From Liolophura sinensis (Eukaryota; Mollusca; Polyplacophora; Chitonida; Chitonidae), in contig NC_088295.1 in NCBI RefSeq assembly GCF_032854445.1, positions 26,959,385-27,023,384 on the forward strand: a DNA stretch of 64,000 nucleotides. Reading direction: 5' to 3'. This document shows, in pieces, positions 99 through 64,000 of the stretch. A program made the position numbers and the translations under genes. Position 1 is the first letter of the stretch; the number at the start of each line of letters is the position of its first letter. The notes beneath the pieces are model-generated. The model saw only the letters and a program-made list of their open reading frames with translations. It searched no databases and had not been told where the DNA came from.

Positions 99-3000
99 GA
101 AGCTGACATGGCCATCGGGCCGTTCACGGTAACACATCAGCGAGCAGCAGTGATAGACTTCACCACAGCCTTCATGCAGCAGAGTGTTGGAATCCTCACC
201 CCTACACCGGCCAAGTCACCTCAGCTTTTCCAGTTCCTTAAGCCGTTTTCTCTTTTGGTCTGGATAATCATAGCCGCCTTCATAGCCCTGACAGGCCTCT
301 GTTTGTTCATGATTAACTACAGCACTCATCTGACTTCCAGCAAGGCAAACATCAAGCACCGGCCCCAGGAGATCCGACTCTTGGAGAATATGGAATTGGT
401 CATTAGCTCAATCTTTGGGCAAGGTATAACAAATATAGTCTCCAATTTAAAAAAAAAAGAATTTCTTTTTACCTAGGCCTGCTTAAAGCTTAGCTGTAGG
501 GTATGTCAAATTTCACCGGTAATACGTGTGACCATTTGTCAACTGTCACACCATATCTGGTTTTATTCTCTGAATGACTTATATGTGTCTTTCATATTAT
601 TTTGGGGAGCCTACGTGGCCAAAGGAGGTAGCACGCCAGCGCGGCACAATGGTTTAGTAGCCTGCCTCTCACCCATGCTGTCGCTATGAGTTAAAGTCCA
701 GCTCATGCTGGTTTGCTCCCTGGTCCAGGTTACCAGCAACCTGCGGGTGGTTGTGGGTTTCCCCCGGGCTCTGCCCGATTTCCTCCCACGATAATGTTGG
801 CCGCCGTCGTATAATCGAAATATTCTTGAGTCCGGCGTAAAACAACAGTCAAATAAATGAACAAAAATCAATTATTTTTCTGCGATTGGGTAATTTAACT
901 GAATGTATTCAGTTTTTACATGCTACAAGGCATATACATGGATCACGTAGCTAAACAACTGTGACAGTACAATGATATAGCTTGGGCAACCGTGAGTTTA
1001 ATTCCTTGCTTACTCGATCGCTGTATATTAATAGTAAGAGTTATTAGTATTGAAAATTTTATGATGACCACAATATCACTTGATCAGTTGTTATCAAAGT
1101 CAAAAATGACACCCAGTATCTAATGTAGCCTCTACTTTGAACACTTAGTGGTAAGTAATTGCTATTATGCTCTTTCGCCATCTACTTTAAAGGCCCTACT
1201 TATCATCCGACGGTGCTGTCTGCCCGTTGCTTGTTGGGGGTGTGGTTACTATTTACGGAACTCCTCCTCTCCATGTACACCGCTCACCTGGCCGCTGTCC
1301 TGACCGTAGCCACACCCCTCAAGCCAATCGACAGCCTTGAGGACCTAGACAGTCGCGATGATATGACAATTTTGGTGGAATCGGGTACAAGTACATGGAC
1401 ATTGTTCGAGGTATGACTGTATATATATCACTGTTAACTCGGCGGGTATTCCCAAAGTGTACAAGGGAAAGTAATTCCGTTGAGAATCTGTAAAATCACA
1501 TTTTCTCGTAATGCTAGGAGATGGTGGAAACCAGGAAACATGTATGTCTAGACACAGACCTTTTTACCTCCACTTTTTGTTTTCATTCACAATTTTAATT
1601 CATTTAATTCTCGGACAGGGTAGATTTAAGACTTGGACGCAAGAAGCTGTCAACAACTCCATCTTGTGTTGTCTTACACTATGTCACACGTGGGAAAGAT
1701 CGCAATTAACTTGCTAGAAGTCGGTGGTATATTCCAGACGCTCTGGATGCATGATGGTTAAATATTCGTACCACTACATTGTTAAATGTGTTAAGTCATA
1801 GAATGGTATGCATCTCTAATCTAAATTTTTGAAATCGTGTTAATCTGTTTATAACTGCAGCAATCAAATCTAGATTTATACCGCTCCATCAATGCCAAAA
1901 AGAAACCTGTTGAGAAGTCTGAGATTGGGATCGACGCTGTGAAGAAAGGCGGTCATTGTTTTATAGGTGGCAGAGTGTCGCTGCAGTTTGGAGTGTCCGA
2001 ATCGTGCGGGGAGATCCGGGTAGCCGAAGAACAATTTTTCAGCGGCTCATACGCCTTTGTGCTGCCCAAACTCTCCCCTTTCAAGAAAGCTATTAATTTT
2101 CGGTGAGTAAGTGGCTGGTTGTATGACACAGGACGGACTCCATTACAGCTTATTGGGTAGTCATTGACGTCCATAACCCTATAGCTAGTCTCCATGGCAC
2201 ATTGCATGTTACGTCATCTGTAGAAGGTCGCTACACCTAGTGGAGAAATATGTCAACGTCTTGGGTGGAAATTGGGAACTGAATCATGTAAAATCTAATG
2301 TAAACGGCCTCTACAAAGAACTAGTCACATCTTGAAATCGAATCTCCGTATTTAAAATCTACAATTTCGCTAATCATTGTTGCTATGCAGTTATGAAGCC
2401 ACTGACCATTTTTATATTTCTAAGCAACTCTAAAACTATTACTATGAAACACATTGTTATCCTTTCACAAAACTCTCCGTTGTCGTAATTTTTTAAGTCT
2501 GTTTCAAGACAAACGCGTTTGGAACATTTTTTTTCCCACCATGCATCAGCCGTTTCTCAAACTTTGCTGCGCAATAGAGAGAGAAAAAAATACTTCGCTA
2601 CGCAGATACGTTACATAATGTGTTGGCGATAGGAAAGTTGCATACTTGCAGGTAATGCACTTCTGGTGGTCATCATAAGCATCCCTTAATACTCGTATTT
2701 TAACAAAGAGAAGTATGCCATTGATTTGTATGGTAGTCCCCTTGTCTGTACTCCTCCAACAGATTGCCCTCTGGAGCCGCGTTACTTAATATTGATAGCG
2801 CGATAGTGAGGAATTATGGGAAGTCAGTTTTACTGCTCTCAATGAATCGAACGGTTGAGCCACAACTCTCTGGAAGTTGGTGACTTTGTCAAGCTAATAT
2901 TGTAGAAGGTATATGATGCGTTTGGCTTCATTGTTATATTTCTTCCCACATTTACTCGTCTCTACATTTGAAACCAATAGTGATTCGGCTCAACGCGATT

Positions 3001-3454
3001 TTAGTGTTTACTTTAAAAACTCAATGTACAGTTCTTGCATTTAAAATATGTGAAAATAAATATTTTGGTAATTTTACAACAAAATAACAAATTTATTTGT
3101 ACAGTTCATGAAGAAAGCTTTCTTATAGTGAGAAGAGGTATTCTGATATACCGCCATATAAAAGGATAACGAAAAATTGAAATAAAAAGCTGTTTGGTGT
3201 TTCCATACAGGATCCTTAAACTGGTGGAGTATGGAATTGTGAAGAACCTGAAAGACCAATGGTTTAACACAATCAATGTGTGCCCGCAGAGGACTCAAAA
3301 CAGCGATTTTATCAGGCTAAGCATGAAGACGCTTGGAGGAGTATTCTTGACCTACGGAATTGTGGCTGTTTTGGGCGTTATTATTCTAATACTTGAAAAG
3401 ATACGAGTCAGACTTGACTTGAAACCTTCTGCGCCTCCATCATGTCATGGATAA
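99..3454 (+). CDS. iGluR-1: ionotropic glutamate receptor, 3' four exons only
   Basis: Partial gene; the window starts inside an intron and the exons for the amino-terminal domain lie to the left. Exons: 99-423, 1193-1410, 1861-2102, 3211-3454 (stop TAA 3452-3454). All boundaries are AG/GT and the phases join. Order of parts: the S1 ligand-binding piece with PFTVTHQR (P, T and R as in the amino-acid-binding site), M1, a re-entrant pore loop ending IFGQG at the first exon junction, M3 ending MYTAHLAAV, S2, then M4 and a short tail ending PPSCHG. Such receptors are tetrameric cation channels of the plasma membrane, opened by amino acids. It is the near twin of the gene at 31302-45731, with about 10 residue differences in some 342. 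The usual acidic ligand contact in S2 is Gly, as in its twin. Splice sites and frame are intact, so I see no sign of decay in this part. Confidence 0.88.
625..871 (+). repeat. SINE family A copy, in an iGluR-1 intron
   Basis: tRNA-like head (tgagttaaagtccagctc in place of the B box), central domain with tttcctcccacgataatg and ggccgccgtcgtataat, and an AT-rich tail of aaataaatga. It lies in the intron between 423 and 1193. The orthologous copy is at 42662-42903, so it was present before the iGluR duplication. Confidence 0.75.
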
Positions 3455-3579
3455 AGCTGCCGTTTATCACTCTACTACTGCCAGACTTCTGCCCTCAGAC
3501 ATTTTACTTTGCAGAGCATTTTCATCCCAGAAAACCGACGATGTTGAAGCTCAGAAACTACAGCTCAATATTATTGTCT

Positions 3580-3585
3580 AATCAA
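3580..3585 (+). promoter_or_regulatory. AATCAA at the place of iGluR-2's AATAAA poly(A) signal
   Basis: At this point the 3' flank of iGluR-1 reads ctaatcaagctg, where iGluR-2 reads ctaataaagctg (45857-45862). If iGluR-2 ends its transcript there, iGluR-1 probably uses a later signal such as the AATAAA near 3714. Confidence 0.35.
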
Positions 3586-4438
3586 GCTGAATCATTTGTG
3601 GAATAATTTTCTCTGTGGTAATATCGGTGCATTCCCGTAATATGTATCATGCAAAGGACATCAAACATCAAAGCTAAGTACCCTATTGATAATTAACAAA
3701 GTACTAGTACCGAAATAAATATTGCCAGTGATGCTATCAGATGTTTAAAATACAGAGTCAGTTGTCACACCGAACACATTTGGGGGCATGGTTGCTTTCG
3801 GAGATAAAATTATGTGGTGGAATGATGTGGATCTATTTTGACCCACACGGGAGAGCTCTGGGTTAGTCGCCTTTCACGCCAGACGCTGGACAACAGAGAT
3901 ACAATTCTTTTCACCCAGGAGATCTCATCGGGTCGAAATAATGGAGAACACTGTTCTATCTCCCTGCCCGCAACAGCTGATAGTGTTGACACAGTATCGC
4001 TGTGAATGCGAGCAATTGATCTACCTATGGACTGTATGTATGTGTCGACTGCATAAACATTTTACGAAGAAAAACAAAAACCCTTCGGCGTACCAAAACA
4101 CCAATGTACACACAAAATGTACTTTTTGAACGTGATATGATTTTGTTTTTTTTGTGTGTGTTTTACGTCGTCATTCATTGGTTTAGCAATGCTTGAAAAA
4201 CTCATGTGAAATGGAAAATAAAAATGTAATTGACGCAATGCTATTTGCGATCAACAGTCATACAAGGATCCTCTGGCATGTAACTGATAATCTGATAGTC
4301 GAGAAACTTGCTAAGAGTTGTCGCCCTTCCTATGTATTACTACTTCCTTACTGAAAGACTCGTTGAGCAGATTCATAAGTTGTTATTACCTTCACTAAAG
4401 AGGCTATGTTTCTGCTGATATTTATCTGTCTCTTTATT

Positions 4439-4567
4439 TGCTGTCGCCGTGAGTTCAAGTCTAGCTCATGCTGCCGGGTCCCCCTCACCATAATGCTGGC
4501 CGCCGTAGTATAAGTGAAATATTCTTGAGTACGGCGTAAAACACCAATTAAATAAATAAACAAATCA
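4439..4567 (+). repeat. SINE family A copy with internal deletion
   Basis: The B-box region (gtgagttcaagtctagctc) is joined almost directly to the 3' half (caccataatgctggccgcc), then cttgagtacggcgtaaaac and the aaataaataaac tail. The matching copy downstream of iGluR-2 (47805-48050) retains the missing middle, about 75 bp. Confidence 0.7.
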
Positions 4568-4748
4568 AATAACGTACCAGAATAAGGCGTTAGAAGTGCC
4601 CGATTGTCTTATTTTGCTTGAGAGGTCTCGCTGGCTCCGATGGTTAAGCTTGCCCGTTGCGACCACATTCCAATAACTAGTGTATAAAGTGATAAATTCT
4701 TGAGTGCGGCAACAATCAAATAAATAAAAGTTTTTCTTGACAACACTG

Positions 4749-5830
4749 ACACTCATATTTCGGGTGACTTTACCCAGGTAATCTTTCGCACTTCTTCACT
4801 ATCCCTGTCTGGTTTGTATGTTTTCACCATCGATTCATGTACTATTGCATGCCTACATCTTTTATCATGTTAATGCGAACTCGCAGCGACAGTGACTTTC
4901 AGAACTTCACCTTGTGCGTGAAATCGTTCTCTCCAATGTCATACGCTATAGGTCGCTTAATTACTGTTGATTATAGTGGATTATAAGGATTATTACAATA
5001 AGCTATACCAATATATTGAGCACCTTTCAGGATTATCTTCAGACTGACAATTTCAAACTCTTGTGTATAACCCGTGTCAGTCGTGAGCATTTCATGGTCC
5101 GTTGCTCACAAAGAGGACGTTGTAGTCAGGATACATAGTTGTGCACTTGCAATTAGTCTATAATCTACGGTTTATGACTGGTAGCTTCCTCGCGTTCAGC
5201 GTGAAGGGGATAGTGCAACGACTGGTTGACCCGTATAAGTATAATGGCTCGGGCGGGGCAGCTTTCTTGCCTTCGGTAAGTCATCTCAGTGAAGCAGCAC
5301 TAGATAAAAGAGCGGTGAAAATCCGTCCTGCAACAAAGAGGCACATAGTATACACTCTAAGGATTCCTTCGTCGTCATATGACTGAAAAATTGTTAAGTA
5401 CGACGTTAAACCCCAATCACTCATTCACTCACTCACGGTTTATGACTGTACCATAATCCAGAGATAAAAATAACGAATGGCAGACAAGAATGAGACCTCA
5501 TTCGAGTTCCCCGGAAATATCGCCAGAGTCTCGAGATTTTGCGAGTTAGAGGTCAGAGTTCGCAGAAAAGCATATAACATTAAGCTAGACTTGCATGAAC
5601 GATATACGAAAGGAAGGAAGAGGAGCTTCCTTCCAGTTTCAGTTCATTGCTGGCGGGTCACAGGATAAAGTGATAGGCCTTCCCAAAATCTATCAAAAAC
5701 CTTAACTAACTCACCGCATCCCATCTGTTGCGAGATTTCCATGGAACAAATAAAACTCATGGGCACTGGTAAACCTTTATTTTTCGTTTGCCCACATTGC
5801 GGAGAATGGTAATGAATGGACGTTTGGGTG
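4749..5830. repeat. 1082-bp tandem duplication, unit 1
   Basis: Begins with acactcatatttcgggtgac and ends with ggacgtttgggtg. The next 1082 bases repeat it, and I found no difference when reading the two side by side. It contains a SINE family B copy. The first part (to about 5180) is also homologous to about 48270-48703 downstream of iGluR-2. Confidence 0.93.
5181..5434 (+). repeat. SINE family B copy, 5'-truncated, with 14-bp target-site duplication
   Basis: Flanked by acggtttatgactg at 5167-5180 and again at 5435-5448. The body shares gcgtgaaggggatagtgcaac, gtccgtcctgcaac-like and cgtcgtcatatgactg blocks with the other family B copies, and it ends in cactcattcactcactc. It lacks the tRNA-like head seen in the copy at 50961-51296. 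Confidence 0.85.
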
Positions 5831-6912
5831 ACACTCATATTTCGGGTGACTTTACCCAGGTAATCTTTCGCACTTCTTCACTATCCCTGTCTGGTTTGTA
5901 TGTTTTCACCATCGATTCATGTACTATTGCATGCCTACATCTTTTATCATGTTAATGCGAACTCGCAGCGACAGTGACTTTCAGAACTTCACCTTGTGCG
6001 TGAAATCGTTCTCTCCAATGTCATACGCTATAGGTCGCTTAATTACTGTTGATTATAGTGGATTATAAGGATTATTACAATAAGCTATACCAATATATTG
6101 AGCACCTTTCAGGATTATCTTCAGACTGACAATTTCAAACTCTTGTGTATAACCCGTGTCAGTCGTGAGCATTTCATGGTCCGTTGCTCACAAAGAGGAC
6201 GTTGTAGTCAGGATACATAGTTGTGCACTTGCAATTAGTCTATAATCTACGGTTTATGACTGGTAGCTTCCTCGCGTTCAGCGTGAAGGGGATAGTGCAA
6301 CGACTGGTTGACCCGTATAAGTATAATGGCTCGGGCGGGGCAGCTTTCTTGCCTTCGGTAAGTCATCTCAGTGAAGCAGCACTAGATAAAAGAGCGGTGA
6401 AAATCCGTCCTGCAACAAAGAGGCACATAGTATACACTCTAAGGATTCCTTCGTCGTCATATGACTGAAAAATTGTTAAGTACGACGTTAAACCCCAATC
6501 ACTCATTCACTCACTCACGGTTTATGACTGTACCATAATCCAGAGATAAAAATAACGAATGGCAGACAAGAATGAGACCTCATTCGAGTTCCCCGGAAAT
6601 ATCGCCAGAGTCTCGAGATTTTGCGAGTTAGAGGTCAGAGTTCGCAGAAAAGCATATAACATTAAGCTAGACTTGCATGAACGATATACGAAAGGAAGGA
6701 AGAGGAGCTTCCTTCCAGTTTCAGTTCATTGCTGGCGGGTCACAGGATAAAGTGATAGGCCTTCCCAAAATCTATCAAAAACCTTAACTAACTCACCGCA
6801 TCCCATCTGTTGCGAGATTTCCATGGAACAAATAAAACTCATGGGCACTGGTAAACCTTTATTTTTCGTTTGCCCACATTGCGGAGAATGGTAATGAATG
6901 GACGTTTGGGTG
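5831..6912. repeat. 1082-bp tandem duplication, unit 2
   Basis: Direct repeat of 4749-5830 at an offset of exactly 1082 bases, including the embedded SINE and its 14-bp target-site duplications. The small ORFs at 5141-5386/6223-6468 and 5477-5668/6559-6750 are translations of repeat DNA and are not called as genes. Confidence 0.93.
6263..6516 (+). repeat. SINE family B copy, second exemplar inside tandem unit 2
   Basis: Same sequence and same flanking acggtttatgactg repeats (6249-6262 and 6517-6530) as the copy at 5181-5434. It arose from the 1082-bp duplication, not from a second insertion. Confidence 0.85.
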
Positions 6913-7955
6913 CACCCAGATATGGTATATCGTCTGTTGCTAATTGTTATCGGCGTGTTATGCCCTTGTTATAGATATACGTTTACATAACCGTGACTGT
7001 GCAGTGGCTCGTGTTACGACTAACAACTGATGATTACATGGTTGAATTTGAGTAGGTATACGAAGCACGGGCAGTGTTGAGCATTCCCCTGGCTGGAGAA
7101 CACTGCTAAATTTCCCGAGCACGTGGCAATTCATGAAGAGTGAAGCGTACATCGCCCACGTGTGACAAGATCTTACTGTTATTGATATAAACTACACAGT
7201 TTTCAGGATTTCTGGAGTAAACGTTTATCCCTACGCCGTTGTCTGTTTATCCTTGTCCTTTGTCTAGTCAAATAATCACTGTAAAATAACTTTCAAGCCT
7301 CAGTCCTAGTGTTTAGCGTGCGAGCACTGCACGATGACCGAATAGCCTCTCACCAGTGCGATCGCCGTGTGTTCAAGTCCAGCTCTAGCCGACTTCTTCC
7401 CCGGTCATATACAGGGAAAAGCCAATCGGCGAATGCAGTAACTTATCCAAGAGTACTCCCAAAAGAAAACTAGTGACGTCTTCATTCCTCGTGAAGATTG
7501 TACCTTTCATTTTTTCTGTCCTACTTTATAGCCAGCATAGAAAGGAATAGCTGTGAGCAAGTGACCCAGCTCAAAGTTTTACGAGCTTTAAGCACACCAA
7601 AGGCAAACCATACACATATGGTTGCCATGACAACAGGCTGATCCCAGCGCGGGCTGCAAGGGAAATGCCTAAATCAATACATTTCAGTCTACACCGTTAA
7701 CCGTCCATAGATTCTGCCAAGCTTTTATTCTAAAATTTTATAGAAGGCAATAGGTCAGTACGAGTGACCTGCTGAGAGAAGTCATGTCAGTTTGTCATCA
7801 TCTGGTCCGAAAGTGTCGGACATCTGATCATTTTACAGGTGTTTAAGCCACCTGCTGAAGATGTTACCCACAGGCTAGACGAGACCGTAGAACAAAAAGC
7901 ACAGCTGGTTGTGGCGGCCAATCCACCTCGTTGTGCTGACGTCTGAGGGCACGAA
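6913..7955. other. Intergenic and 5' flank of claudin-fold gene 1
   Basis: Holds a truncated SINE family A head at about 7322-7425 (gatcgccgtgtgttcaagtc). The last few hundred bases before the ATG at 7956 probably contain the promoter and 5' UTR, but I see no clear TATA box. Confidence 0.4.
7322..7425 (+). repeat. SINE family A, 5' head fragment
   Basis: Matches the tRNA-related head of the family (tctcaccagtgcgatcgc, gtgttcaagtccagctc) but stops before the central domain. Confidence 0.55.
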
Positions 7956-10900
7956 ATGGCGATTTCACCCCTTCACATAGTTGTGCTGAATGCAGTGATA
8001 TTTGGGGTCCTGGCAACCATCTTCACAGTGATCGCGGTGGCCACAACGGCATGGCAGGATTACAAGTGGGACTACAGCGCACTTCAAAAGTTAAACGACA
8101 CTAACCACTGGCAAATAATTGAGCCATTGTCGAGTGATGGCTATTACATAGCTAAGCAAAAAGTGACGAACATACTGAACGATACGGAGATTACGGCATG
8201 GGTGGAGAAAGAGTTCTTGTACGACACGTATACTGGCGTCTGGCAGATCTGTAATTCTCTGTCCGGTAAGATTCGTCTCCCTGCATTCCAACATTAAATG
8301 TGGAGGAATTTCTGACGTCCGTTTCCTGTCAGGCTGATAATAATTTATTTAGCGCTCAGGATTATGAACCGATGCTTCCCGACACAAAATCGATAGTATC
8401 TCGTAAAATATTAACACATTCGCTCTCTCAGAACACATTGCCTATTAGATGTCCACATACGGGGATATAGTACATAATGCATGCGCCCTCCCCGGAAAAT
8501 GTGATCCCGGAGGCGTGAAGGTACCAGTAACAATGCAATTAAACAAAACATTTGACATTTATAAAACATACAAAACCAGGAAAAACAGCAAATATATAAT
8601 TCCCTTTCTAAACATGTACGATAGTGGAATATAACATTTTAAATTTTGTCTATTTAGTGTTCATGAGGTTAATACTTTGCAATCATTTAATACAAATGTG
8701 TTTTTTCACATGTTCCATACAGCTTTTTTTTACGATTACAGCACTGCACTTCATTAAAATTTGTCGTGTATAATTCTAGGAGTGAAAATACGAGGTTGAG
8801 TTTACTTTCCAACGGTGTGTTCTTTAAGTGATCTGTACAACACTAGCTTCCTCAATATGACTGTGTTCCCTATTTAATGATAAGAGCAGCAAACTCTCCA
8901 GCGCCTGGAACTTCCTGCTGTAGATATGCGATTACTGTAAAGACGCTTGTTTCGCGTTTCACAGGGTGATAGTTTCTAGTAGTTGTTCATCGTCATCGTA
9001 TACACTGCTTAAGAACATCCAACTATAGGCTAGCCCTATTTACCTAGTAAATTAGATTTAAATCTTTAAAACTAAAGTTTGACTGCCACCTCATTTTAAG
9101 TTATAGGAAACCACACTCTTTTCAATACAAGGTTTTAAAGAAATGTACCAAATGTAGTAAATGACAGTTCAAAAAATAACTGGCGCTTCTGACAACCGAC
9201 TGTTTCATAACATCAGGAAAATTTTACGGAAACTGCCGAAGATTTTGTTCATGAGGACTCATCACTTATACGAGTTAAATAGTGTTATTCGTCGTAAATT
9301 TTTTTGAATCCTGGTGTTAGCTCTGTTCCCTGGGGTACCCTTCATATCATTTTACTATTCGGTATATCTTCTCTGAAGACTGAAGCACTTTAAAGCAAGA
9401 TCTCCACTCTGAGACATCAGCACGACATGGTCAAAAACATTGATAACTTAACAAACAGCACTACAGGCTATATCAAACACTATAAAAAATTGTTTTAAAA
9501 ACATGTTAAAGAAAACCTATGTGTTTTCCTCGACATTTGAAGAGACAAAAAGATCTGAAACTGCAGACTCCCTTGAGACAACATTGTAGAATATTCTACG
9601 GTTACTCGTTTCTGTGGATAACGAAGACAATGAGACACAACAATGGCGAAGTCGACTTTCCTCCCCTAATAAGATGATATTGCAGTCACGTGCAAATATG
9701 TGGATACAAACGTGATTCCTTGCATCTAGTGTTGTCTCAACAAAACTAATTAAAGTAAAATCGGTTTTAATGTGTATGTACAGTTAAGGAACCAGTCCAC
9801 TTTCAGAACCAGAACATCAACGAGACCTGTTCAGCTGTAATTAAGTTACCTACACTCCACATATTCACAACACATGTATTTATAAAAACACATGCACTAA
9901 TGTGCAAACCCCTTGCTGTTTTTATTTGAATCCAGACATCTTGTTGATAAACGAGTTATATGCATATGGTGGAACTATACCATACGTTTTTATTAAAACA
10001 TAGGCTGGCATTCTTTTTATAATGCCGACGTTTTCAGTAAATCATTTCAACGTTTACTCCAAAACACTGGTGTTATATAGAAAACATGTGACATGTTTAC
10101 TAGAGTGGTCGACTTGCCGTTTTTATTTTAACATGTATATGCCTATCAGTTTATGCTGTTTATTATTTAATATTCCTTTTAAGATTATTTTAATATGGTG
10201 ACAGGTAAACATTTTCTACCTACTCTTTGATTTGTGTACTCAAAACCCTATAACATAACAAAAATACCCGACTGGTTGATCATGAAGTGGTTAGGACTGA
10301 CACAACATTCACAGTGAGCATATATCCCAGCGGGTTATTGGTATTATGCTGACGCATGTTGTATTATGCAAAAGTTAACTTGACCGTGTGGGCTGAGTGA
10401 AAATAAACGGGAAAAGCCACTCAACAAATGTACCTATAGTATTAATAAAACATTGATATTGCTCTTCACTTTTTGTAACAAACAGATTCCATCGACTATA
10501 TGTTAATCCATTACTTAAGAAGAGAGATTCAATGCGCATGGGCAAATGTATAAATAGTCTATGAAAACCGGTTTGTCTTTGAAATTGATCTGTAGGGATG
10601 TGAGCTATGAGAAATTTTTTTTTCAAAATTCTGACATTTGTGTTTCACCACAAATACCTCTAGGTAGATATACTGAACTGGTGAATATTGTTTACTTATA
10701 AGCAGTATTACTGGGGGAAAGCGGAAATTAATCTGTCCGTAGAGAAATGAAACATAAACTGAAAATCAATATCAGAAGATAAACAGAGAGGCCTTGCCAT
10801 TGATTTAATTTCTACCCACTAGTGTTGCGATACATCCTTCGTGTCTAGTTAACGGGTTGAGATGAATTAGTACTTATAACTTATTCAATAAGTAACTGGG

Positions 10901-13900
10901 TAAACACATATCAGTACGATAACTTGTACGTAAGCTGTAAACATCTGTATTCTTTTATTTCCACCATGTGAAACGTTTCAGATGAGATCTAATATGTATT
11001 AAATTTCATTCAGTAGTATATTGAAATCAAAAACCCATTTGGAAATGGTCAAATGTTTGTTTTCATTGAAAACAAAACTCGAAAATGCCAATTCATTTCT
11101 CAGGTTCTGAACAGAAATTCGATCATATTACATATGGATCCTTTTGTAAAATATTTCAAAATGAGTGAAACGCTTTAAAACATAGCTATATGTTGGTACA
11201 CCGTGGATATAAATGGCGTCACCTCCGTGCTTTGGCTTGAAATAGTTTATGTAGTCCTCTACAGTCCATGTATTCATAGATCTGTATCGGTTTAGCATGT
11301 GTATATTAAATAGCAAAAACCTGATGTGAAGTCACATGGTCACTGTACAATCCAATTTTAAATACATTTTACTCAGTTATTTGATTATTTGATAAAATAA
11401 TCTATCAAACTATTTTCTGGACAGTGTTTTAATGTCTGACATACATGTATATTCGCATTTAGCCTTTATTTGCACTTTAGTAACACATGCCCCTTAATGT
11501 AAGTCTCTTTCATGTGTTCGTATGGCTGGATCATGTGCCATATTAACATGTTAGTTATAGACCACTTTGCCTTCTCCAAAATCTGAGATATAAGTCCTCC
11601 AGCAGGGATAAGTGAGAAGTGTGTTATTGTAGATTGGCCAGGTGGCCGGCATCAGGGATATACAGCCAATGTTAATAAGGCTTGTTCTCCTCCAGGCGCG
11701 TTATTGACTTGCCATTACCTCCTTATTCCAGTGCTCAGCTGTGCCTCTTGACACTCCTGGTAACAAATCAGTCTGACCACCTACCTGCATATCCACATCA
11801 TCTCTTTCACATCGTTTCAATGCACGCTCTGTGATTTTGGTAGTCATGACACTGCAGTAAAACTACCACCCATTCTGAAAGTATGTACACCATGGGTATG
11901 TCTTTACATATTGGTAGTGTATGTTTTGATACGATAATTATAAATATATTCAACAAAGTGAGAGGTTATAAAAAAGCGGAAGTTTAAAAAATTGCACCAA
12001 CACTCTATTTCCGGAAATTAATCTCAAATATCTTTACAATATATCAGTTGCACCCATGTGCAAAACTCAAGCATCCAAACATCAAAATTTTAAAAAAGAC
12101 ATGTATTCGTTAATAAGCAAGACAAAATGACCTTTAGACTGTCCCATAGACCTGCTCGTATACATCCAAAAATTATATCACAACCATAATGTCTCTCACT
12201 TGTGTTATTTCTTGCAAAAACAAAAAACGTATACCTATTAGTTAATACACTCATCTCATACGTAGAGCTTCAGTGAATGTTATATGTGTCGCTTTTTCAG
12301 ACGCCCAAGGTTAAAAGGTATAAAAGGTAATAAACTTTATTCGGATTACGCTGTGCTGGCGCGCTAACCAACTGAGCCACGATGCCCCCTTCCGTCATTA
12401 ATTAGAACAATAACTGTGCCTTTTATCCACAGACGAAGCCCTTCAAGCCGTCGGGAAGAATTCCCGGTGCTTCGGTTTTGTGACAGAATATAACAAGGAA
12501 ACAACACAGTTTGATGAAAACGGGAAATGGTTGGCACGTAAGTATTTGCTGCTTGGTGGTGAAACATGATACATTCACAATCATATATGATGACACTAGT
12601 GGGAAAGATGCTACTAGCATGTACAGGAAAGCGAACGGTATTTGCTACATATGGTCCAGGATCAGTAACGGAATCTAGGCGAATCTAAACAGTGGTTAGG
12701 ACAATCCTATGGGAACATTATAAATCGTTCGTCATGTGACACATTTTCTGCTGTTAAGTTCTGAAACACTAACACATTACGGCGTGAGGAACACAGAGGA
12801 ACTCTCTTATCGGCTGATCGAGCCTGAGACAAGCAATCACCACTGTCAAACATTACACCTAGAGAATGTTTTGGACATGGAACTGTGACTCTTCCTACAT
12901 GCCTTATGCAAGTCTAACATTTTATTGTTAATGAAAATGAAATATAAGAAGAGTTTCATGGGGTTATTTTTGATAAAGGTATGTGTTGACGATTGATAAC
13001 AACAACAACAGTCAAATTTCAGTGACAGTGATTATTCTGGTATAAAAATGTACTCAATGTTGGTTTAAAGCTCATAGCTCATGAAACAGGTACATAATTC
13101 TGGAGTTTCTATGTTCTTACCTCGGTTAGAAGCCATTTAGATATTTATTTCCGACCGAAATGATTCACGTCACTTCGTCGCGGTTTGCGAAGTTCGCCAT
13201 GATTAGCATTTCGGATTGGAGGCTATGTAATCTAGAATTGTGATAATTACGAAAACGGCTCATGTGTTATAGTCTGATAGATGGTCCTGCTGTCAAGATC
13301 GAAAACAAAGACCAGAGCAAAAGCAAAGGCAAGATCAAGCCAAGCCACAGAGGATTAGTTAGAAGATATCACAGATGTAAATTTACAGCATAGAGATTTG
13401 CCAGGGATCGCCGATCCTACCAAGAGGAGGCTATCGTGATTGACAGCGGGCAGAGGTAGTGTATTCGATCCTGCGAGAGTTTCGCGGGAGATCATTAATT
13501 TTCAGTATATTAAAGGATTTAGTGTTATGCTGAGGGGACTGTGATTATATGATTTAAACAGTTCCTTCTCTTGCATTAAACTGTACCTAAGGATAACGGT
13601 TAGATAGAAATTCCAACACATATAACTATGGTAATATTTTTAAATTACTAAAGACTGTTCACCGTCTGTAGCCGCGTCAACAAGCCGCCCAGAGCTATTC
13701 CCCCTGAAACTATTTCTCACAAACGGTATTGCTGATTCTGATGAAATATTTGATGATTTGACTGTATATATGTAAACAAATGGATTCCACTGGTTAGTGT
13801 TCGAACTGAAAAACAAATCTTCTGGTCTTCTATTATGCTGTTCTTGCTGATCCACTGAAATAAGTCGTAAGACTGAGTTCTCTTCCAAGAGTTGTACTGG

Positions 13901-16900
13901 AACAATACAGACTGGGAATGTATTTGGCGTTATAAATAGAATAACAGCATTGAAATAAATGATTGGAGTATTGAGAGTAAATCCATTTTTCTGTAGCGGT
14001 GTTTCCAAATACCCGAGGTAAATATCGATCTCACACGCTACCAAAATATAAAACTTTTTTTTTTACCTCGATAGAGATTAACTGGTGATAAATAGTGGGG
14101 CAGAGCAAAGCCTACATTCTTAATCTTATAGGTCATAAGACTGGGTTTGTTTTTTTGTTTTGTTTTTTTTTTTCAATCCACTACACTTCTCAATCTGTGG
14201 ATGAATACGGCGTGGCGTTTAAATAAGCCACAATCATTCATTCTTTCGATGGGCAGCTTGAAGGCAGCCCAGAAGTTTGACAATACCAAGTCATTTGTCA
14301 TTTGACCTGTTGGTGACACTATGGTGTGTTCTCAAACATGATACCTCCATTCACTGCCAGATACAAATGACTGAATAGGTGTGGCGAAATGCCGTCAGAC
14401 ACATTTGTAAGCAACATTACATTGCACAGCCCGGTCACAGATGTCATTGTGAATCTAACCTGGATCTATTTCCACCATTTGGTAACAATCTTCGCTTTGT
14501 TTTATTTGTTTTTACAAGGTATGCACAACTCAGCCGCCACGTGTTTCATTGTGTCTCTTGTTTATCTGTTCGGGGCATTGGTGATAGGAGCTATAGGCAT
14601 CTCCCGGAGACAAGTTTCAGTGTGTATGCTCACGGGAGTTCTCTATGTACTCGCAGGTAAGGTTTGTCTGACCGTCTACGCTCATGTCCATACTCAGAGA
14701 CAAGTGTCCGTGTGTATGGTCACGGGATCCACTATGTGCTCTCAGGTAAGGTTTGTCTGATCGTCTCCACCCATGTCTGTACTCAGAGACAGGTGTCCGT
14801 GTGCATGGTTACGGGATCCACTATGTGCTCTCAGGTAAGGTTTGTCTGATCGTGTACACTCATGTCTGTACTCAGAGACAGGTGTCCGTGTGTATTGTCA
14901 TGGGATCCACTATGTACTCCCAGGTAAGGTTTGATCGTCTACACTCATGTCTGTACTCAGAGACGGGTGTCCGTGTGCATGGTTACGGGATCCACTATGT
15001 GCTCTCAGGTAATATTTGTCTGATCGTCTAAATCCATATCTGTTTTAGTGTGTATGCTCAGGAGAGTTCTCTATGTACTCGCAGGTAAGGTTTGGTAAGG
15101 CACTAGATAAAAGAGCGGTGGAAATCCGTCCTGCAACAAGAAGGCACATTACATACACCCTAAGGATTCCTTCGTCGTCATATGACTGAAAAATTGTTGA
15201 GTTATACGTTATACCCCAAGCACTCACTCACTCACTATGTACTCTCAGGTAATGTTTGTCTGATCCTCTACACCCATGTCTGTACCCAATCCTGTATGTA
15301 TTCCCAGGTGAGGTGTGTCTATTCTTCTACACTGGTGTCATTACCCAGAGAAGGTGTTCGTATGTATTGTCATCGGTCGGTCTCCACAGTAAGGTCTCCA
15401 TGTAGTTTCAGGTGGAGGTGATTTTTCCATGATATGTTTGTGTGCAGTCAGCGTTGTGGATTATGGGTATAGCGAAGTCTTATTTGAAGCGCTCCAATCG
15501 ATTTTCACTTCCTAGTAATGGCAATTAAAGAATAATTGAATAGATGATATTTCAGGTTACAGAGCTAGATTAACCCGGTCCAAAGGCATTTCGACATGGG
15601 TCAACAAAGACCTGCCATTGATTCATCGATAACCCATACCGTCGCTGTTGACGATTAGCCTGCGGTATCAAACCAAGCACGACAGTTTAACGTGCAGGTT
15701 AAACGCGATGCAAAGTAAGTTAATTCAAAACAGACTCCGACGTCTACTCAGACATAACTATTGGACCACAAACACAAAATGTTTTATTTATTTCAGATAT
15801 GGTTTTATTCTACCAGTTGATTACAGTGATTAAATTCTATAATCATATCTTAGGAAAGTTATCCTATGTTTTTACGGTTATCATGATCGTTAGGGATTTT
15901 AAGCATTACAGATAAACCAATTATTTACCTTTCCTTGGTCGAATGTTTGAAACTTTGTATCTTTACTTTTATATTTCGTTATGAAACTAGTTTGATAACA
16001 GCAAGTTCAATTTTGAACAAAATAAAATGTTCCACAAATCAAACATGAACTGTAGACAGCGTAAAATTACGCGAAGAAAATTTCACCGATTTCTGAAATT
16101 GTTGGTTTCATCATCCTGCTATTTAGCATTTTGTATTATGTCACTGTTATAAATGCGTAAACTGCCTCGGCCTTTTGGGTTTTAGCGCAGCATAATGACC
16201 CAGGAGTCTCTCACCAATGCGGTCGCTGTGAGTTCAAGTCCAGCTCATGTTGTCTTCCTCTCCGGCCGTACGTGGGAAGGTCTGCAGCAACCTGTGGATC
16301 GTCGTGGGTTTCCACCGGGCCCTGCCCGGTTACCTCCCACCATAATGCTGGCCGCCGTCGTATAAGTGAAATATCCTTGAGTTCGACATAAAACAACACT
16401 CAAATAAAGAAATAAATCACAGTGGCTGGGGCTACCAGAACTTAGCTATCGATTGAAACTATACTTATCTACGATGGAGAAAGAATTATATATTAAGTTG
16501 ATGTGCCAGGTTCCAGTGTTAAAACGTACTTAAACGACATCGTCGCTTAGGCGGGCGTGCTGCGACTCACAGGATCCATTCTGTCACGTTGCCGTTATTA
16601 TAGAGGCTGGTATAGTGTACTAATCAACTAATTCGCCTGATGAACGAAGTTAGTTGAAACGAATTGCAAGCGACATGTGATTCCTTTTAGTGAATAATAC
16701 AGAAATGGGAGCACTCAAGCCTTAAGCCTTAATTTTGTGAATGTTTCTGTCTTTTTTCTCCCAGCTGTATTCTCGATATTTACGAACTTGGCAATTTTTC
16801 ACAGTACTGTGACAGTCTATTATTTGTGCTTCAGTTGTTCATGTTTCTTCACACTTTTTATTCCAGCTGTGTTTTCGGTGTTCGGCCTAGGGATTTTCCA

Positions 16901-17102: not shown

Positions 17103-17210
17103 CCTTCTGTGGACAAGTGCTATCGAGTGCTGTACCAGGCCGCTTATTGACCAAATCCTTTTCAGTACGTAGTACGTAACAGCCGTAGAGTACGTCAATA
17201 TCGCCTCAAC

Positions 17211-17216
17211 AATAAA
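17211..17216 (+). promoter_or_regulatory. Candidate poly(A) signal AATAAA of claudin-fold gene 1
   Basis: First AATAAA after the stop codon at 17100-17102, about 110 bases downstream. Confidence 0.4.
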
Positions 17217-46209: not shown

Positions 46210-46560
46210 GGAATGATGTGGATCTATTTTGACCCACACGGGAGAGCTCTGGGTTAGTCGACTTTTACGCCAGACACTAGACGATAGAGATACAATTTTT
46301 TTTATCCAGGAGATCTCACCGGGTCGAAATAATGGAGAACATTGCCCTATCTCCCTGCACGCAACAGCTGACTGTGTTGACACATGATGTGGACCTATTC
46401 TGTTCACTGGGCCCACAAGAGAGAGCTCTGGGTTAGTCGCCTTTTACGCCAGACGACAGAGGTACAATTCTTTTCACCCAGGAGATCTCACAGATCCGAA
46501 ATAATGGAAAAACATCTCCCTGGACGCAACAGCTGATAGTGTTGACACATGATGCTACAG
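46210..46560. repeat. Local tandem duplication, ~180-bp units, only in the iGluR-2 flank
   Basis: gagagctctgggttagtcg at about 46242 and again near 46423, followed in both by cgccagac, caggagatctcac and gcaacagctga. The iGluR-1 flank has one unit (about 3826-3990). Confidence 0.7.
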
Positions 46561-47264
46561 TATCGCTCTGAATGCTGACAATTGATCTACACATCGACTG
46601 TATGTATGTGTCGACTGCATAAACATTTTACGAAGGAAAAAACCCTTTCGGTTTACCAAGATACCAATATACACAAAATGCACAAATGTACTTTTGAACG
46701 TATTATTATTTTGTTTATCTTGTGTTTTACGTCGTGGTGCATTGATTTAGCAATGCTCGCAAAACTTATGTGAAACGGAAAATAAAAATGTAATTGAAAC
46801 AATGCTATTTGCGATCAACAAAGCCATACAAGGATCCTCTGGCATGTAACTGATAATGTGATTGGGAGTTGTCGCCCTTCCTTTGTATAGCTACTCCCAC
46901 TACTGAAAGATTCATTGAACAGATTCATAAATTGCTATTACCTTCACTGAAGAGGCTATGTTTTTGTTGATGTTTATTTACCTGTGTGTGTCTTTATTTG
47001 TCTGTCTGTTTAGGAAAAAGTTAAGCAGGAATTTGGATGGAATATTGTGTGTGGGCTGGTCTTTGTCCAGAGACCAATCCATTGAATTTTAATGATGATT
47101 ATCTGACGATCATAGTACTCGAGCTGATGCTGTGATTGATTAGTTGTTTGGGGTTGAAAAGTAGACATAAGATCTGTGGAAATACACACACAGAAAGGGA
47201 GAAAAAAGCAGAGGTATCACAGAAAGATGACCAAAAAATTCAGAGAAGTGTTTAAAGCTGAGAA

Positions 47265-47360
47265 TATGGATTGCAGCAACAGATATATGGCATTGACATA
47301 TATATGTCTCTGGCAGATATATGGCATTGACAGATATATGGCATGTATAGATATATGGCC
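47265..47360. repeat. Short array of ~18-bp units
   Basis: Four to five units of gatatatggcattgaca. Confidence 0.7.
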
Positions 47361-47804
47361 CTTGAAAATCTCTCCTGTACTTGACCAACCATTAGCACTG
47401 AAATTACCGCGTGATATTATTTTCTGTATTGAATTGTTTTTTCACATTTTGAGGGATAGCGTTTCTTCTTTATAGACCTTATAGACAAATTGGCCAATTT
47501 ATTAATTTGTTTAAAGTTATATTGAAGAACTTCTCACTTATCGTTACTATAAGAACATTCCCAAATGTGACGTACATATATGCTCACCATATTGTTGGAG
47601 ACCTGTGGCCTACAACGAACGCTGGACTATGCTGACGGTCAGATAGCACAACGAACAGTGAAAGCAACAGTTGAATTCAGTGACAGTGAACTTTTGCTTG
47701 ACAAATTATACATATGGAACTGCGAACTGATTTGTTATGCCTATCTAGCTTGACACCATAGCTTGCATCAAATAACAGGTGGTGTGAGAGGGGGCAGAAG
47801 GTGT

Positions 47805-48050
47805 TGGTACGCCAGCACGGCGCAATAACACAGGAGCCTCCCACCAAAGCGGTCACTATGAACTCAAGCCCAGCTCATGCTGGCTTCCTTCCTCTCCGGT
47901 CGTACGTGAGGTCTTTCGGCAACCTGCGGATGGTTGTGGGCTTCCCCCGGGCTCTGCCCGACTTCCTCCCACGATAATACTGGCCGCCGTAGTATACCTG
48001 AAACATTCTTGAGTACGGTGTAAAACACCAATCAAATAAATAAATAAATC
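47805..48050 (+). repeat. SINE family A copy, intact partner of 4439-4567
   Basis: Head tacgccagcacggcgc, B-box region gaactcaagcccagctc, central gacttcctcccacgataata and tail aaataaataaataaatcaaa. Confidence 0.8.
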
Positions 48051-48703
48051 AAATAAAGTACTTGTATTAGGAGGCGATAGAAGTGCCCGACTGTCTTATT
48101 TTGTCTCGCTGGCCCTGATGGTTAAGCTAGCTCGTTGCGACCACATGTCCATGGCACGTGTATAAAGTGATAAATCCTTGAGTCCGGAAACGATCAAATA
48201 AATAAAAAGTTTTTCTTGACAACACTGACATTCTCTCTGATTACTGAGTAAGTGAGATGTGACAGAGTTGCCCACACGTATTTCGGTTGACTTTACCCAG
48301 GTAAACTTCCGCACTTCTTCACTATCCCTGTCTGGTATGTAAGTTTTCACTATCGTTTCATGTACTATTGCATGCCTACATCTTTTATCATGTTTATGTG
48401 AACTAACATCGACCGTGGCTTTCAGAACTTCATCTTGTGCGTGAAATCGTTCTCTCCAATGTCATACGCTATAGGTCGCTTAATTACTGTTGATTATAGT
48501 GGATTATAAGGATTATTACAATAAGCTATACCAATATATTGAGCACCTTTCAGGATTATCTTCAGACTGACTCTTTCAAACTCTTGTGTATAACCCGTGT
48601 CAGTCGTGAGCATTGCATGGTCTGTTGCTCACAAAGAGGACGTTGTAGTCAGGATACATAGTTGTGCACTTGCAATTAGTCTATAATCTACGGTTTATGA
48701 CTG

Positions 48704-53672: not shown

Positions 53673-56600
53673 ATGGTTAGCATTTGCAAATACAGTACTT
53701 TGATATTTGCCGGTAACGTTACAGTCCTGCTTATTGTGTCCATGTCTACGGATTACTGGGAATACCGTGGCTTTGACATGGACAATCTGAACAAGACCCT
53801 GAGGCGGTCCAATACAACGACTGTGATAATACCCAAAGATACGAGGTCCTATATACAAATTCACCATGTAAGAACTAAACGGACAAACAACCCAGCTGAG
53901 GCTTACCCTTTCAATGTGACTATGTACCAGCCGCCAATATTAGTTCATAAATACTACTCACATAATATCTCCCAGGTGCCTCCAGATACTTTAGATAATT
54001 CAAGCTGGGCTGCAGAGACAACCATAATTCTCTTCGTTCAATATGGAAACCTGTTTCGAGACTGTGATAATCTTGAAGGTAAGATCATAGACGTGATATG
54101 AGACTCAAAAGATGTGCTAAATGTTGTCTGGCTTTACGTTTGATACCTGTGTCATAATGTAAGAAAATGATCTTTACCTTGTTGCAATCTCTGTCATAAA
54201 ATTTAATCAATAAAGTTGCATTCGTGTATATGCATATTATAACGTATAAAAATATATATACATATCGTATTTCCGTGGATGAGATAATAATTATCATCTG
54301 TTCAAATCGTGTTTAGATCTACCCCAGTTTATCAGACTTTACGATTTGGATGCCTACACCCATAGTTTGTGACTATTTTTCACTTCTACTAATGTAGAAT
54401 GTAATGTAAAAAAATTTCATCATATTACTTTTATAAAGTCACAAAACAATTTTCACACTTTTCCCATAAGAAAGTCAGTGGCATGCATCTCATCGAGGTT
54501 TACACCAAAGAAAAAAATACCATACGAAACAGAAAACATCAGCCACATTAGAATTAAAGACAATCACGTTCTTTACAAAGTTACCTTTGCCTTATATATT
54601 TCTAACATCGTATAAGTTCTAAGGTTCAAAATAGTTTTAAAATAACAAATTTTTACTTACGTATTTATATGAATGAATGTCATTAGACATATAGACGAAA
54701 CACAACAATGTTGTATTTGGAATTACTTCGTAATTTTAACGATATTTCGTCCTAATGTTCCCATATCAATGGCTTTTGGATACAATAGCATTCAAATCTT
54801 GCGATTTTGCCAAACGTTTTGCTTCCCGGGATTTTCTTGTAGAACATGTTTTAATTTAACACATTTTATCATGACGTTTTCAAATTTGAAAGTATTTATA
54901 CATCTATATGGATTCTAAATTTGGGAGAATGTGGCGGATGCCGTCAAATTGAATTCTTAGAGATGAGAGCACTTACTGTTTTTGCTGAAAGCAAGTGTAT
55001 ATCCAAACTCAAAATAAAACATAAGTACGCAAAGTGACATGTTTCTGAAAACTAGTTCTTGTAAACGACATTTGTAAAATGATTGCTTATTGATTATGGC
55101 GAATTTAAAGAGCCACAAGACAGGATGAGTAATATTTAGGAATGTATTGAAATCATCGTCGCTAGCTAAATGTATTACATCAATAAGTAGATATATTAAC
55201 TAGTTATGCAGTCCAAATGTAATTAAAAATCACCAAAGAGCCATAATTGTGTTTATTGACATTGCTTTATTTTAGATCACATCAAACATCGATTTGCAGC
55301 ATTTAAGTTTATTTGTTCTTGTTACCCAGAAATACTTATCATCTGCTTAGTGAAAATTGTTTCAACCCATTTGTAATTTAAAACTCTTATCAGACTTCGC
55401 CGAAATGGCAGCATGCTCATGACAGTCTCGAAAATAGATCTGTTGTCCATTAACGCCTTTTCCTCATATCTACGATCCTGGTTTATTTATTTATTTATAT
55501 ATTTGAGCGTTGATCAACATCTTACTCACTTAGTATTCTTGTTTTTGCTTTGCATTTGATTCCGTCCAATTTTGTACTTTATAGACTTGCTTAGTTCTTA
55601 GGTGGTTTTGTGTTAAACATCATTTTGACAATTGTCCTTGCGATTATTCACATGAACGTCCATTTTTGTTGACGGCTGGTGTACGAATGTCTGTCATAGA
55701 CTCAAGAATTTTTCATTTAAATGATACCTTAATGGGTTTTATTGGTGGAACAAACCGGAGTGCCCGGGGTAAAAAATAGATCTTTGACAATTTTTAAATA
55801 TACATGCTATATTGATGGAAGACAAAAGCTGAACCGGTGCAATATAAGTTCCCAGTATCTTTGTCAGACTAGCTACATCTCTCAGGGGTATGTAACTCAG
55901 CACAATAGGACTGAAATTCTGGTGACGTGATGTTGAAAGCTAATTACTCAGCACACCAGATAAGCGATAGGATGGGAGAACTAGACGTACTCGCCTGGCT
56001 CTGGGCTGGAAATTTGATGACTATAGGTCAGTTATAAATTCTCCATTGCTTTTGCAGAAGGTGTGAGACAAAGACTTGGGCTTCTCCACTTAAACCCATG
56101 GAGATGTTACAGCTTTTTGACCTTGACACGGCGTGATGACGTCGTGAAGGACACGCCTGCAGCTAAGTGTAAGTATGGCTATGCAGTTAGTTACAATTGT
56201 CACTTGAAGAAACCTTCCAATTCCTGGATTTGTAAAATTTAAATCTGGAAATGTTTGCTTAAAGACAGCAATGTGTACTTCTCTGTAGCGCTCTAGTCGA
56301 AAAGTAATTGGTTAAGGCGGCACTGGTCTATGAGTTTGTTGATATGTACACGGTATCACATGTACTGTGTACATTTATAATGGTCCCAGGGATATTAACT
56401 GCAAATGAGACGATTGTGTAAAGCCGCTAGTATAGAATTCGACCTGCCAAATAAAAATAGAACAAGATCTCTTCGATACCATTTAATGGTCTACAATATG
56501 TACATATACAGACCTCCTTCTAAAACGATTGACAGTTCAAACGGTCTCAGTTATGCACAACTGCAAAGACAGGAGATAGGAAATATGTATTTCTATTTCT

Positions 56601-62600: not shown

Positions 62601-64000
62601 AGGTTTTTTTAACTGAAATTATCTTTTCTACAAGACAATTTGCACGCAAGTTTAAAATGATAAGTGTTTTATTGAAGACTAAAATAGACATTTCTGTTCA
62701 TTAAGAGGAGCAGTGAATGGGGATTAATGTCAGTAGTATTTATTGTGTATGAGTGATCACCAACAGAAACCATATGACTTATTTGGTAACAGTAAAAAAA
62801 ACAGGTTATATTTACCCTGAAACAATAACTACATGCAATGTTCGTAAACCAATTTCACATTGTTCATAATCCCATACGACTTCAAACTATGCTCTTACTG
62901 TATTAAAAATTCTTATTATAACGACCACTTACTGTTTTGTTTTGTATATTCAGACCTAGAAAGAGCGGCTTTCGCTTTCGCCTTGATATGCCTTATGTCC
63001 ATGATGACAGCTTGTGTGACAGGAGCTTATGGATCGTTCTGCAGATCGAAAGATTCCTTAATGGTATCCTCGGCCACTTCGCTATCAGCAGGTGAGTTAA
63101 CAGGCCAGGCATCACAAAGCTCGTCTGGAGGTTTTACAATTTAAACCGTCTAGACAAACCTTCATATTCGTCCGATGTTAATTAGGCAGCAGACATTGAC
63201 ACATATGCTAATTTGAGATTTGTTCACTAGTTGAAGACTTTTGTAACTTGTAAGACAGGCCCAGTTAAGGCCGCTTAAGGTTTTAGTCACCAGGGGCCAG
63301 TTATTCAAAAGTGTATTAAAGTTAATATCAGTCTCATCCTTATACAAATTAAATGACACTTTAGTCTGAGCTAAAGTTTATACCAAGCTGAAGCCCTAAT
63401 ACACTTTTGAGCAACTAGGTGATATCTTTTGTTTCTTAATTTTAGCTAATTTGATTAATGAATGCTTCTTTTGAGGAAATTGAAGTTTTGTTTTGAATGT
63501 GACATACTAAAATAAATATCTGTTGGCTAGCTTCTGAGACAATCCTGTGGCTCAGTCTTTTTTCCTGACGAAATATTTTTGCCATCAGCTTACATAATTC
63601 GGAGAGATCTGTAACGGGGAACATTGGACGCCTAACACAAGTCTACCTAAATGGTGTACTATTTTGTTCTTCTATGCACTATACAGTCTAGTTGTGCTCG
63701 TAAAGTAAAGAAGGCGTTTACAAGAACTCCATCGTGATAACAGAGAAGGTGTTTTTGACACAACTGGGACCTGCTTGTGTAGGCGAGAAATATTAAGCAA
63801 CCGTATGAATATCATGCGCTGTCCACGTGCTTGATTTCACAATGCATGCGTTTCTCTCCAACAGGTATGTGCTTGACTTTCGCCATTGCTTTATTTCACG
63901 GGAAGTGCCATTTACTACGCCGGCGTGAATTGGTGCTGGGTCACGATGTCCCTTTCAAAGAGGTGATCAATGCAAGAAGGACGTATGACTATGGCTGGTC
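53673..64000 (+). CDS. Claudin-fold gene 2: TARP/CACNG-like four-transmembrane protein, 3' end beyond window
   Basis: Exons 53673-54078, 56058-56168, 62954-63091 and 63865 onward, all GT-AG with phase-1 introns. The third exon is 138 nt, exactly as in claudin-fold gene 1. TM1 runs into IVSMSTDYWEYRG, which resembles the end of TM1 in stargazin-type proteins (GTDYW...RG). The long first extracellular loop has five N-glycosylation sequons, then GNLFRDC, a weak form of the GLW..C motif, and a later Cys in WRCYSF. TM2 follows YLERA, TM3 spans SLSAG and IALFHGK, and the window ends at YDYGWS, which resembles the YGWSF opening of TM4 in TARPs. By family it could be a channel auxiliary subunit in the plasma membrane; a different claudin-fold role is possible. 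It follows iGluR-2. Confidence 0.72.
58236..58460. repeat. Degenerate array of ~40-50-bp units
   Basis: Repeated words actacttgg or ccacttggtt followed by ttatagc and tttctaa, with gctgtccaaag-like links. Five or six units, strongly diverged. Confidence 0.5.
60058..60182 (-). repeat. Fragment of the divergent family B-like SINE
   Basis: tgggattttacgtcgaatca, ttatgacgacgaggagtcat, gtgtcttcttgtggcagagc: the same order and subtype as 25626-25985. Confidence 0.55.

Follow-up and report, generated by a model that had tools for sequence, protein, structure and literature searches.

A claudin-fold gene and an ionotropic glutamate receptor (iGluR) gene were duplicated together, in one tandem block of approximately 42 kb, in the genome of the chiton Liolophura sinensis (assembly GCF_032854445.1, 609 Mb). 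Elsewhere in this assembly, at C8:37.88 Mb, eight consecutive haemocyanin beta-sandwich units were located, which fits a molluscan genome. We analyzed a window of 64,000 nucleotides of contig NC_088295.1 (C1:26959385-27023384) together with its flanks, 154 kb in total (C1:26899385-27053384). Gene models of the window confirmed the four genes, the plus strand, and the order given in an earlier reading of the window alone (the sequence-only reading): iGluR-1, claudin-fold 1 (CL1b), iGluR-2, and claudin-fold 2 (CL2). Directly upstream of the window lie a second copy of CL1, termed CL1a, which was detected by a genome search with CL1b as the query, and a further claudin-fold gene, termed CL0, which was detected by a PF13903 search and by reading of open reading frames (ORFs). 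The order including the flanks, all on the plus strand, is CL0 - (CL1a - iGluR-1) - (CL1b - iGluR-2) - CL2. When both strands of the 154 kb were scanned with a profile built from CL0, CL1a, CL1b, and CL2 (the CL profile), strong matches were limited to the exons of these four genes. We consider it probable that a cluster of CL genes with one iGluR gene inside it became alternating by the duplication of the CL1-iGluR block, and that the adjacency of the two gene types is mostly an accident.

Joint duplication of CL1 and the iGluR gene

Self-comparison of the 154 kb revealed two plus-strand copies. Copy A spans 26.9238-26.9656 Mb; it starts at approximately 26,923,812, approximately 35.6 kb upstream of the window, and its 3' end is window positions 1..6262. 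Copy B, which contains CL1b and iGluR-2, spans window positions 6686..48703. Within a single contig the two follow each other head to tail with approximately 0.4 kb between them, and the pieces that align collinearly, offset by 37.7-44.2 kb, cover both CL1 and the iGluR gene. Since one CL1 and one iGluR gene are present in each copy, the claudin gene and the channel gene were duplicated together, and the tandem duplication of this block accounts for the alternating gene order. This was not visible from the window alone and needed the flanking sequence. The sequence-only reading had observed that the claudin-fold genes are far more diverged from each other than the iGluRs, from which it was concluded that they were not copied in the same recent event. 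The observation was correct, as CL1b and CL2 share 23% identity and the iGluRs 721 of 745 aligned residues; the conclusion proved wrong for CL1, because CL1 had been compared with CL2, an older paralogue, and CL1a lay outside the window.

Divergence between the two copies is uneven along the block, ranging from 3 to 15.5%. After coding sites were subtracted from the aligned pieces, noncoding divergence was 10.2% in the claudin half but 6.5% in the half with the iGluR gene (p 8e-20), where gene conversion would account for the lower value. Coding sequence, compared by the same subtraction, diverged less than the noncoding sequence of the same half, both for the iGluR genes (odds 0.23, p 1.5e-25) and for CL1 (odds 0.37, p 1.3e-9). 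Furthermore, pN and pS between CL1a and CL1b were 0.025 and 0.093, respectively (Fisher p 0.0002): CL1 is under purifying selection. No internal stops were found in the assembled models of the CL1 pair and the iGluR pair.

The possibility that the approximately 42-kb repeat represents two haplotypes of one locus, assembled in tandem, was also considered; the true locus would then read CL0 - CL1 - iGluR - CL2. Such an artefact would fit the head-to-tail position of the copies in one contig, approximately 0.4 kb apart, and the junction itself, where a 1,094-bp direct repeat (window 4747-5840 and 5829-6921) shows 99.7% identity and is far more alike than the copies themselves. It would also fit the iGluR synonymous divergence of merely 0.022, and the genome search turned up only one close copy each of CL0 and CL2. 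However, a synonymous divergence of 0.093 in CL1 and a noncoding divergence of 6.5-10.2% are high for alleles, and the divergence varies strongly from one part of the block to another. In addition, the offset of copy B jumps by 5.4 kb between window 17.8 and 25.6 kb, and this interval encloses remnants of RNase H and integrase ORFs. These retroelement remnants, located between CL1b and iGluR-2 (20846-22587, minus strand), matched integrase H2C2 and RNase H above the cut-off and reverse transcriptase just below it, and are Gypsy-like by our reading. An assembly artefact is very unlikely in our judgment.

Structure of the claudin-fold genes

CL1b and CL2 consist of four exons each and encode proteins of 262 and 318 amino acids, respectively. 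In CL1b, exon 1 (7956..8265) encodes transmembrane segment 1 (TM1) and the first extracellular loop (ECL1) with the motif GVWQIC; exon 2 (12433..12537) is kept in CL1a with identical splice sites; exon 3 (14519..14656) encodes TM2 and the start of TM3; and exon 4 (16867..17102) encodes TM3, ECL2, and TM4 up to the stop. Further upstream acceptors of exon 4 are open too, and the chosen acceptor is the one conserved in CL1a. In CL2, exon 1 (53673..54078) encodes TM1 and a long ECL1 (STDYW ... GNLFRDC), and is followed by exon 2 (56058..56168), exon 3 (62954..63091) with TM2, and exon 4 (63865..64166) with TM3, ECL2, YDYGWSF, and TM4; the window holds positions 63865..64000 of the last exon, and its final 166 nt to the stop lie beyond. 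The two stretches of CL2 highlighted by the sequence-only reading, STDYW...RG (STDYWEYRG) and YDYGWS, were both present. CL1a and CL1b agree in their four exons and in the splice sites, CL1a contains no stops, and 247 of the 262 residues are identical. The model of CL0 was built from exons 1, 3, and 4, with a middle exon of 144 nt; exon 2 was looked for and not found, and CL0 could therefore be incomplete or a pseudogene.

The claudin-fold identity of both window proteins was borne out by Pfam Claudin_2, which CL1b and CL2 matched with 50.2 and 59.5 bits (cut-off 29.1); CL0 without exon 2 scored 25.3 bits, under the cut-off. The ECL1 motif is GVWQIC in CL1, GLWKIC in CL0, and a degenerate GNLFRDC in CL2, and residues W33 and C99 were invariant in all six aligned rows. 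Every intron of CL1b and CL2 is GT-AG and in phase 1, and both genes have a third exon of 138 nt, as had been pointed out from the window. However, these features are not special to the two genes: phase-1 introns, as modelled, also occur elsewhere in the genome, in one TARP gene and two further claudin-like genes, in which the middle exons are 135, 153, and 141 nt. A special CL1b-CL2 link based on intron phases and the 138-nt exon was thus rejected. The C-termini, read by eye, are GFD in CL2, CGE in CL0, MNI in CL1a, and INI in CL1b, class-2-like only among PDZ patterns. An AlphaFold model of CL1b from its single sequence (mean pLDDT 54.4, pTM 0.33) was discarded.

An 89-bp tandem array of 4.8 copies (window 14607-15030) covers the 3' end of CL1b exon 3, its splice donor, and the start of intron 3, and copies of the unit also occur behind CL1a exon 3. 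The repeated donors might give variant splicing. A dispersed repeat of approximately 260 bp, SINE-like by our reading, appeared in many copies on both strands in the self-comparison, e.g., at window 605-871, 35695-35954, 38227-38490, and 41529-41799.

Relationship of the CL proteins to TARPs and other claudins

In PDB searches, CL1b alone matched CACNG7 at E 0.001 and then solely other CACNGs (21 sequences). CL2 alone gave no match better than E 1; its weak matches were two GluA2 chains at the DYGWSF-LAW stretch (one named a GSG1L chimera), NDUB8, and lens MP20 (E 3.3). The CL profile matched 27 sequences, led by CACNG5 and CACNG7 (2e-6 to 5e-6), CACNG3 (5e-5), and CACNG8 (0.013 to 0.09); lower matches comprised two unrelated synthase chains (0.01-0.02), LHFPL4 (2), and CACNG2/3 chimeras (6-8). 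No junctional claudin chain was matched by the CL profile up to E 10, so that the affinity to junctional claudins named in the sequence-only reading as evidence against its proposal was not seen. Single-sequence PDB searches with two control claudin-like genes, C3 (C3:12.18 Mb) and C6 (C6:17.78 Mb), gave no claudin-fold chain; CL1b alone outdoes these controls, and CL2 alone hardly does.

Two clear TARPs were identified elsewhere on the contig, 13-14 Mb from the cluster: TARP13 (C1:13.616-13.623 Mb, plus strand) and T2 (C1:12.940-12.965 Mb, minus strand). Even with exon 2 missing from the query, TARP13 matched CACNG7 at E 3e-27. The last exon of T2 ends in RRTTPV, as in vertebrate TARPs, and TARP13 ends in PIY, without a PDZ motif. 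Both genes lie in a region of claudin-type genes. In local protein comparisons, for which the search sets were tiny and the E-values are relative, TARP13 and T2 reached 3e-26 to 8e-26 against one another but at best 1e-4 against the CLs. CL0, CL1, and CL2 matched one another at 3e-9 to 5e-15, far better than TARP13 (search set of 7 proteins). Two non-TARP genes, T3 (1e-6) and C3x (4e-5), were closer matches to CL2 than TARP13 was (1.5e-4), and C6 matched CL1a at 5e-6. By these within-genome comparisons, TARPs are not preferred to other claudin-like genes as relatives of the CLs. The CLs were ruled out as TARP orthologues, given the clear TARPs and the matches to them of 1e-4 at best, and orthology of CL2 on the basis of YDYGWS alone was considered and rejected.

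According to a published survey (PMC7653359), the CACNG-GSG1 family carries the motif YSYGWSF before TM4. Counted by eye, CL2 keeps six of the seven positions (YDYGWSF), CL0 four (ISNGWSM), and CL1 two (VTVLWSL), compared with six in both TARP13 and T2, three in the non-TARP genes C3 and C6, and four in T3. A C-terminal PDZ motif, mostly class 1, as in the TARP subfamily, was not found in the CLs.

In a tree of eight rows, the TARPs paired (93/93), the CLs grouped (81/90), and CLs plus TARPs were separated from C3 and C6 with 96/95. When two partial rows were added (10 rows), the TARP pair (92/97) and the CL clade (63/81) were recovered and the clade of CLs plus TARPs dropped to 49/16; three other groupings were not rejected (p-AU 0.225-0.236). 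The trees hold genes of this genome.

On this evidence we weighed whether CL2 and the other CLs are true members of the CACNG-GSG1 family, i.e., extra TARP-like proteins acting on AMPA receptors encoded elsewhere, to which the neighbouring iGluRs would be irrelevant. The motif of CL2, the CACNG matches of the CL profile, and the eight-row tree argue for membership. The fall in support with 10 rows, the PDB search with CL2 alone, the closer matches of CL2 to T3 and C3x and of C6 to CL1a, the GFD end of CL2 without a PDZ motif, and the absence of much of YSYGWSF from CL1 and CL0 argue against it, and we regard it as quite unlikely. The CLs share with TARPs the phase-1 introns, the Claudin_2 domain, the ECL1 W and GLWxxC-type motif, and WS at the start of TM4; they differ in the long ECL1 of CL2 and in lacking the RRTTPV end, and they are not the TARP genes of this genome. 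With junctional claudins and the PMP22-EMP-MP20 group they share the superfamily, as defined by Pfam Claudin_2, and CL2 alone a very weak MP20 match. CL0, CL1, and CL2 thus appear, from sequence comparison, to form one diverged claudin-superfamily lineage that leans to CACNG by the PDB profile and is unplaced by the trees. Of the TARP-like character proposed from the window, the likeness to CACNGs and the motif of CL2 stood, and neither TARP orthology nor an affinity to TARPs within the genome did.

The iGluR genes

iGluR-1 starts at least approximately 9.5 kb upstream of the window. Its plus-strand exons in the window are 99..423 (end of S1, M1, and M2; located in part by tblastn), 1193..1410 (the M3 gate, MYTAHLAAVLTV, and the start of S2), a short S2 exon at 1619..1648 with a weak donor and an uncertain boundary, 1861..2102 (S2), and 3211..3454 (end of S2, M4, and stop). 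iGluR-2 (33185..45731, plus strand) was modelled with 12 exons: 33185-33343, 34753-35004, 35383-35558, 36321-36524, 38816-39025, 40263-40360, 40797-40887, 42112-42436, 43246-43463, 43666-43695, 44253-44494, and 45488-45731. The first exon and probably one exon of the amino-terminal domain (ATD) were not found in the reading of the locus for either gene. The two models are open over the 745 aligned codons.

A Pfam scan, performed on iGluR-2 alone, detected ANF_receptor (35.0 bits, cut-off 25.4), Lig_chan-Glu_bd (93.9, cut-off 30), and Lig_chan (94.7, cut-off 30.8). Among the best 60 of 362 PDB matches, iGluR-2 scored highest with GluD1 (181 bits), followed by GluD2 (174), GluK1 (172), an entry labelled simply 'Glutamate receptor' (170), further kainate receptors, and GluA2 (159). 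AMPA receptors are therefore not the best-matching class, and the AMPA-receptor setting assumed in the sequence-only reading was not supported; the receptor class is here judged from the classes in the PDB. Like delta- and kainate-type receptors, iGluR-2 has ATD, ligand-binding, and pore domains, and the alignment with GluD1 indicated that it retains the S1 arginine. The window iGluRs differ from these receptors in S2, where the aspartate of GluD1 (LWDVA) is replaced by Gly (IGGRV) in iGluR-2 (exon 44253-44494) and likewise in iGluR-1 (exon 1861-2102), whereas the S2 exons of two relatives at C1:18.7 Mb retain Asp (IGDAS and IGDRA). This acidic residue holds the amino group of the ligand, and the pair in the window has hence probably changed or lost amino-acid binding, as far as the sequence indicates. 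In addition, SYTANLAAF reads MYTAHLAAV, and a Gly occupies the alignment position that we take to be the Q/R site. Large tandem iGluR arrays, which are among the closest relatives of the window iGluRs, were located at C1:6.07-6.31 Mb and C1:18.67-18.80 Mb.

Frequency of the pairing and its possible function

To place the locus in the genome, 88 Lig_chan matches (E up to 0.001) were merged into 28 loci, and 36 Claudin_2 matches (E up to 10) into 9 loci. The pairing occurred at one of the 9 claudin-type loci and one of the 28 iGluR loci; under uniform placement, the chance of one such meeting within 50 kb was P 0.088. The next nearest claudin-type locus was 2.5 Mb from an iGluR match, and three were on contigs without an iGluR match. 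No iGluR match was found within 5 Mb of the two clear TARPs, and a search of 70 kb around two of the closest iGluR relatives, together with the 3' end of another, detected no CL-like exon (best E 0.41). Inspection of the flanks and the genome, as the sequence-only reading had proposed, thus revealed a further pair, with CL1a immediately upstream of the window beside iGluR-1, and no second locus among the Pfam matches. At E up to 10, PF13903 also gave matches in E. coli, so some of the 36 claudin-type matches may be chance. A genome search with PF00822 matched one exon.

The locus could instead be a unit of channel and partner, in which CL1, perhaps with CL0 or CL2, serves the neighbouring iGluR as its own four-TM auxiliary subunit, similar to TARPs or GSG1L on AMPA receptors; linkage would preserve joint expression or combinations of alleles, and the duplication would have copied the pair as a unit. 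This idea accommodates the joint duplication with both genes open, the purifying selection on CL1, the proximity of the CL profile to CACNG5/7/3/8 and of CL1b alone to CACNG7, and the YDYGWSF of CL2. Claudin-superfamily partners are, moreover, described for AMPA receptors (PMC7653359), with Cldn24 as one of them (PMC12965324), and for GABA-A receptors (LHFPL4) and nematode acetylcholine receptors (HPO-30). Against it stand the single locus detected in the genome, the best match of the iGluRs to GluD and not AMPA receptors, the position of the clear TARPs 13-14 Mb away with no iGluR match within 5 Mb, and the motif counts of CL1 and CL0, which are no higher than those of non-TARP genes (three to four of seven). 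We consider such a unit rather unlikely. Its more specific form, a claudin-fold protein dedicated to an iGluR without the acidic amino-group residue, duplicated as a unit outside the AMPA class and evolved apart from the TARPs of this genome, is likewise unlikely.

Discussion

The explanation that we favour, the largely accidental adjacency of CL and iGluR genes, would start from three diverged genes of the claudin superfamily, CL0, CL1, and CL2, in a small cluster that encloses one diverged iGluR gene. The approximately 42-kb tandem duplication would then have copied the block of CL1 and the iGluR gene and generated the alternating order, with both copies of both genes keeping their ORFs. The CL proteins would be four-TM membrane proteins of the accessory or adhesion type, and their adjacency to the iGluRs would mostly be a genomic accident carried along by the duplication.

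Several points weigh against this explanation. A functional pair would likewise yield intact copies of both genes, and the iGluR pair showed no significant pN < pS (pN 0.014, pS 0.022, p 0.23). The best matches of the CL profile, CACNG5 and CACNG7 (E 2e-6 to 5e-6), are known AMPA-receptor partners. In a tree of seven rows, TARP13 grouped with CL2 and CL0 (93/96), split from C3 and C6 with 98/88, and the trees taken together do not place the CLs firmly. The Pfam survey, in which PF13903 at E up to 10 reached three of the four CL genes and missed CL1b, may have missed further claudin-iGluR pairs. Finally, the tandem itself could be an artefact of assembly. Some CL protein may be a physical auxiliary subunit of its adjacent iGluR, a candidate role that we rate as possible although rather unlikely, and a functional claudin-iGluR pairing is a reasonable hypothesis and not an established finding.

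We found no report of a claudin-fold/iGluR gene pairing in the literature, judged largely by titles among the matches listed. According to a published survey, most AMPA-receptor auxiliary subunits are held to have arisen in vertebrates (PMC7653359). A molluscan unit of claudin-fold and iGluR genes that were duplicated jointly provides concrete gene pairs for asking whether such partnerships arose independently in other iGluR classes. If the CL and iGluR proteins do act together, the locus would represent a case, maintained through linkage, of an auxiliary subunit of claudin type beyond the AMPA class. If they do not interact, the locus cautions against reading adjacency or alternation of genes as function, as one tandem duplication explains the pattern.

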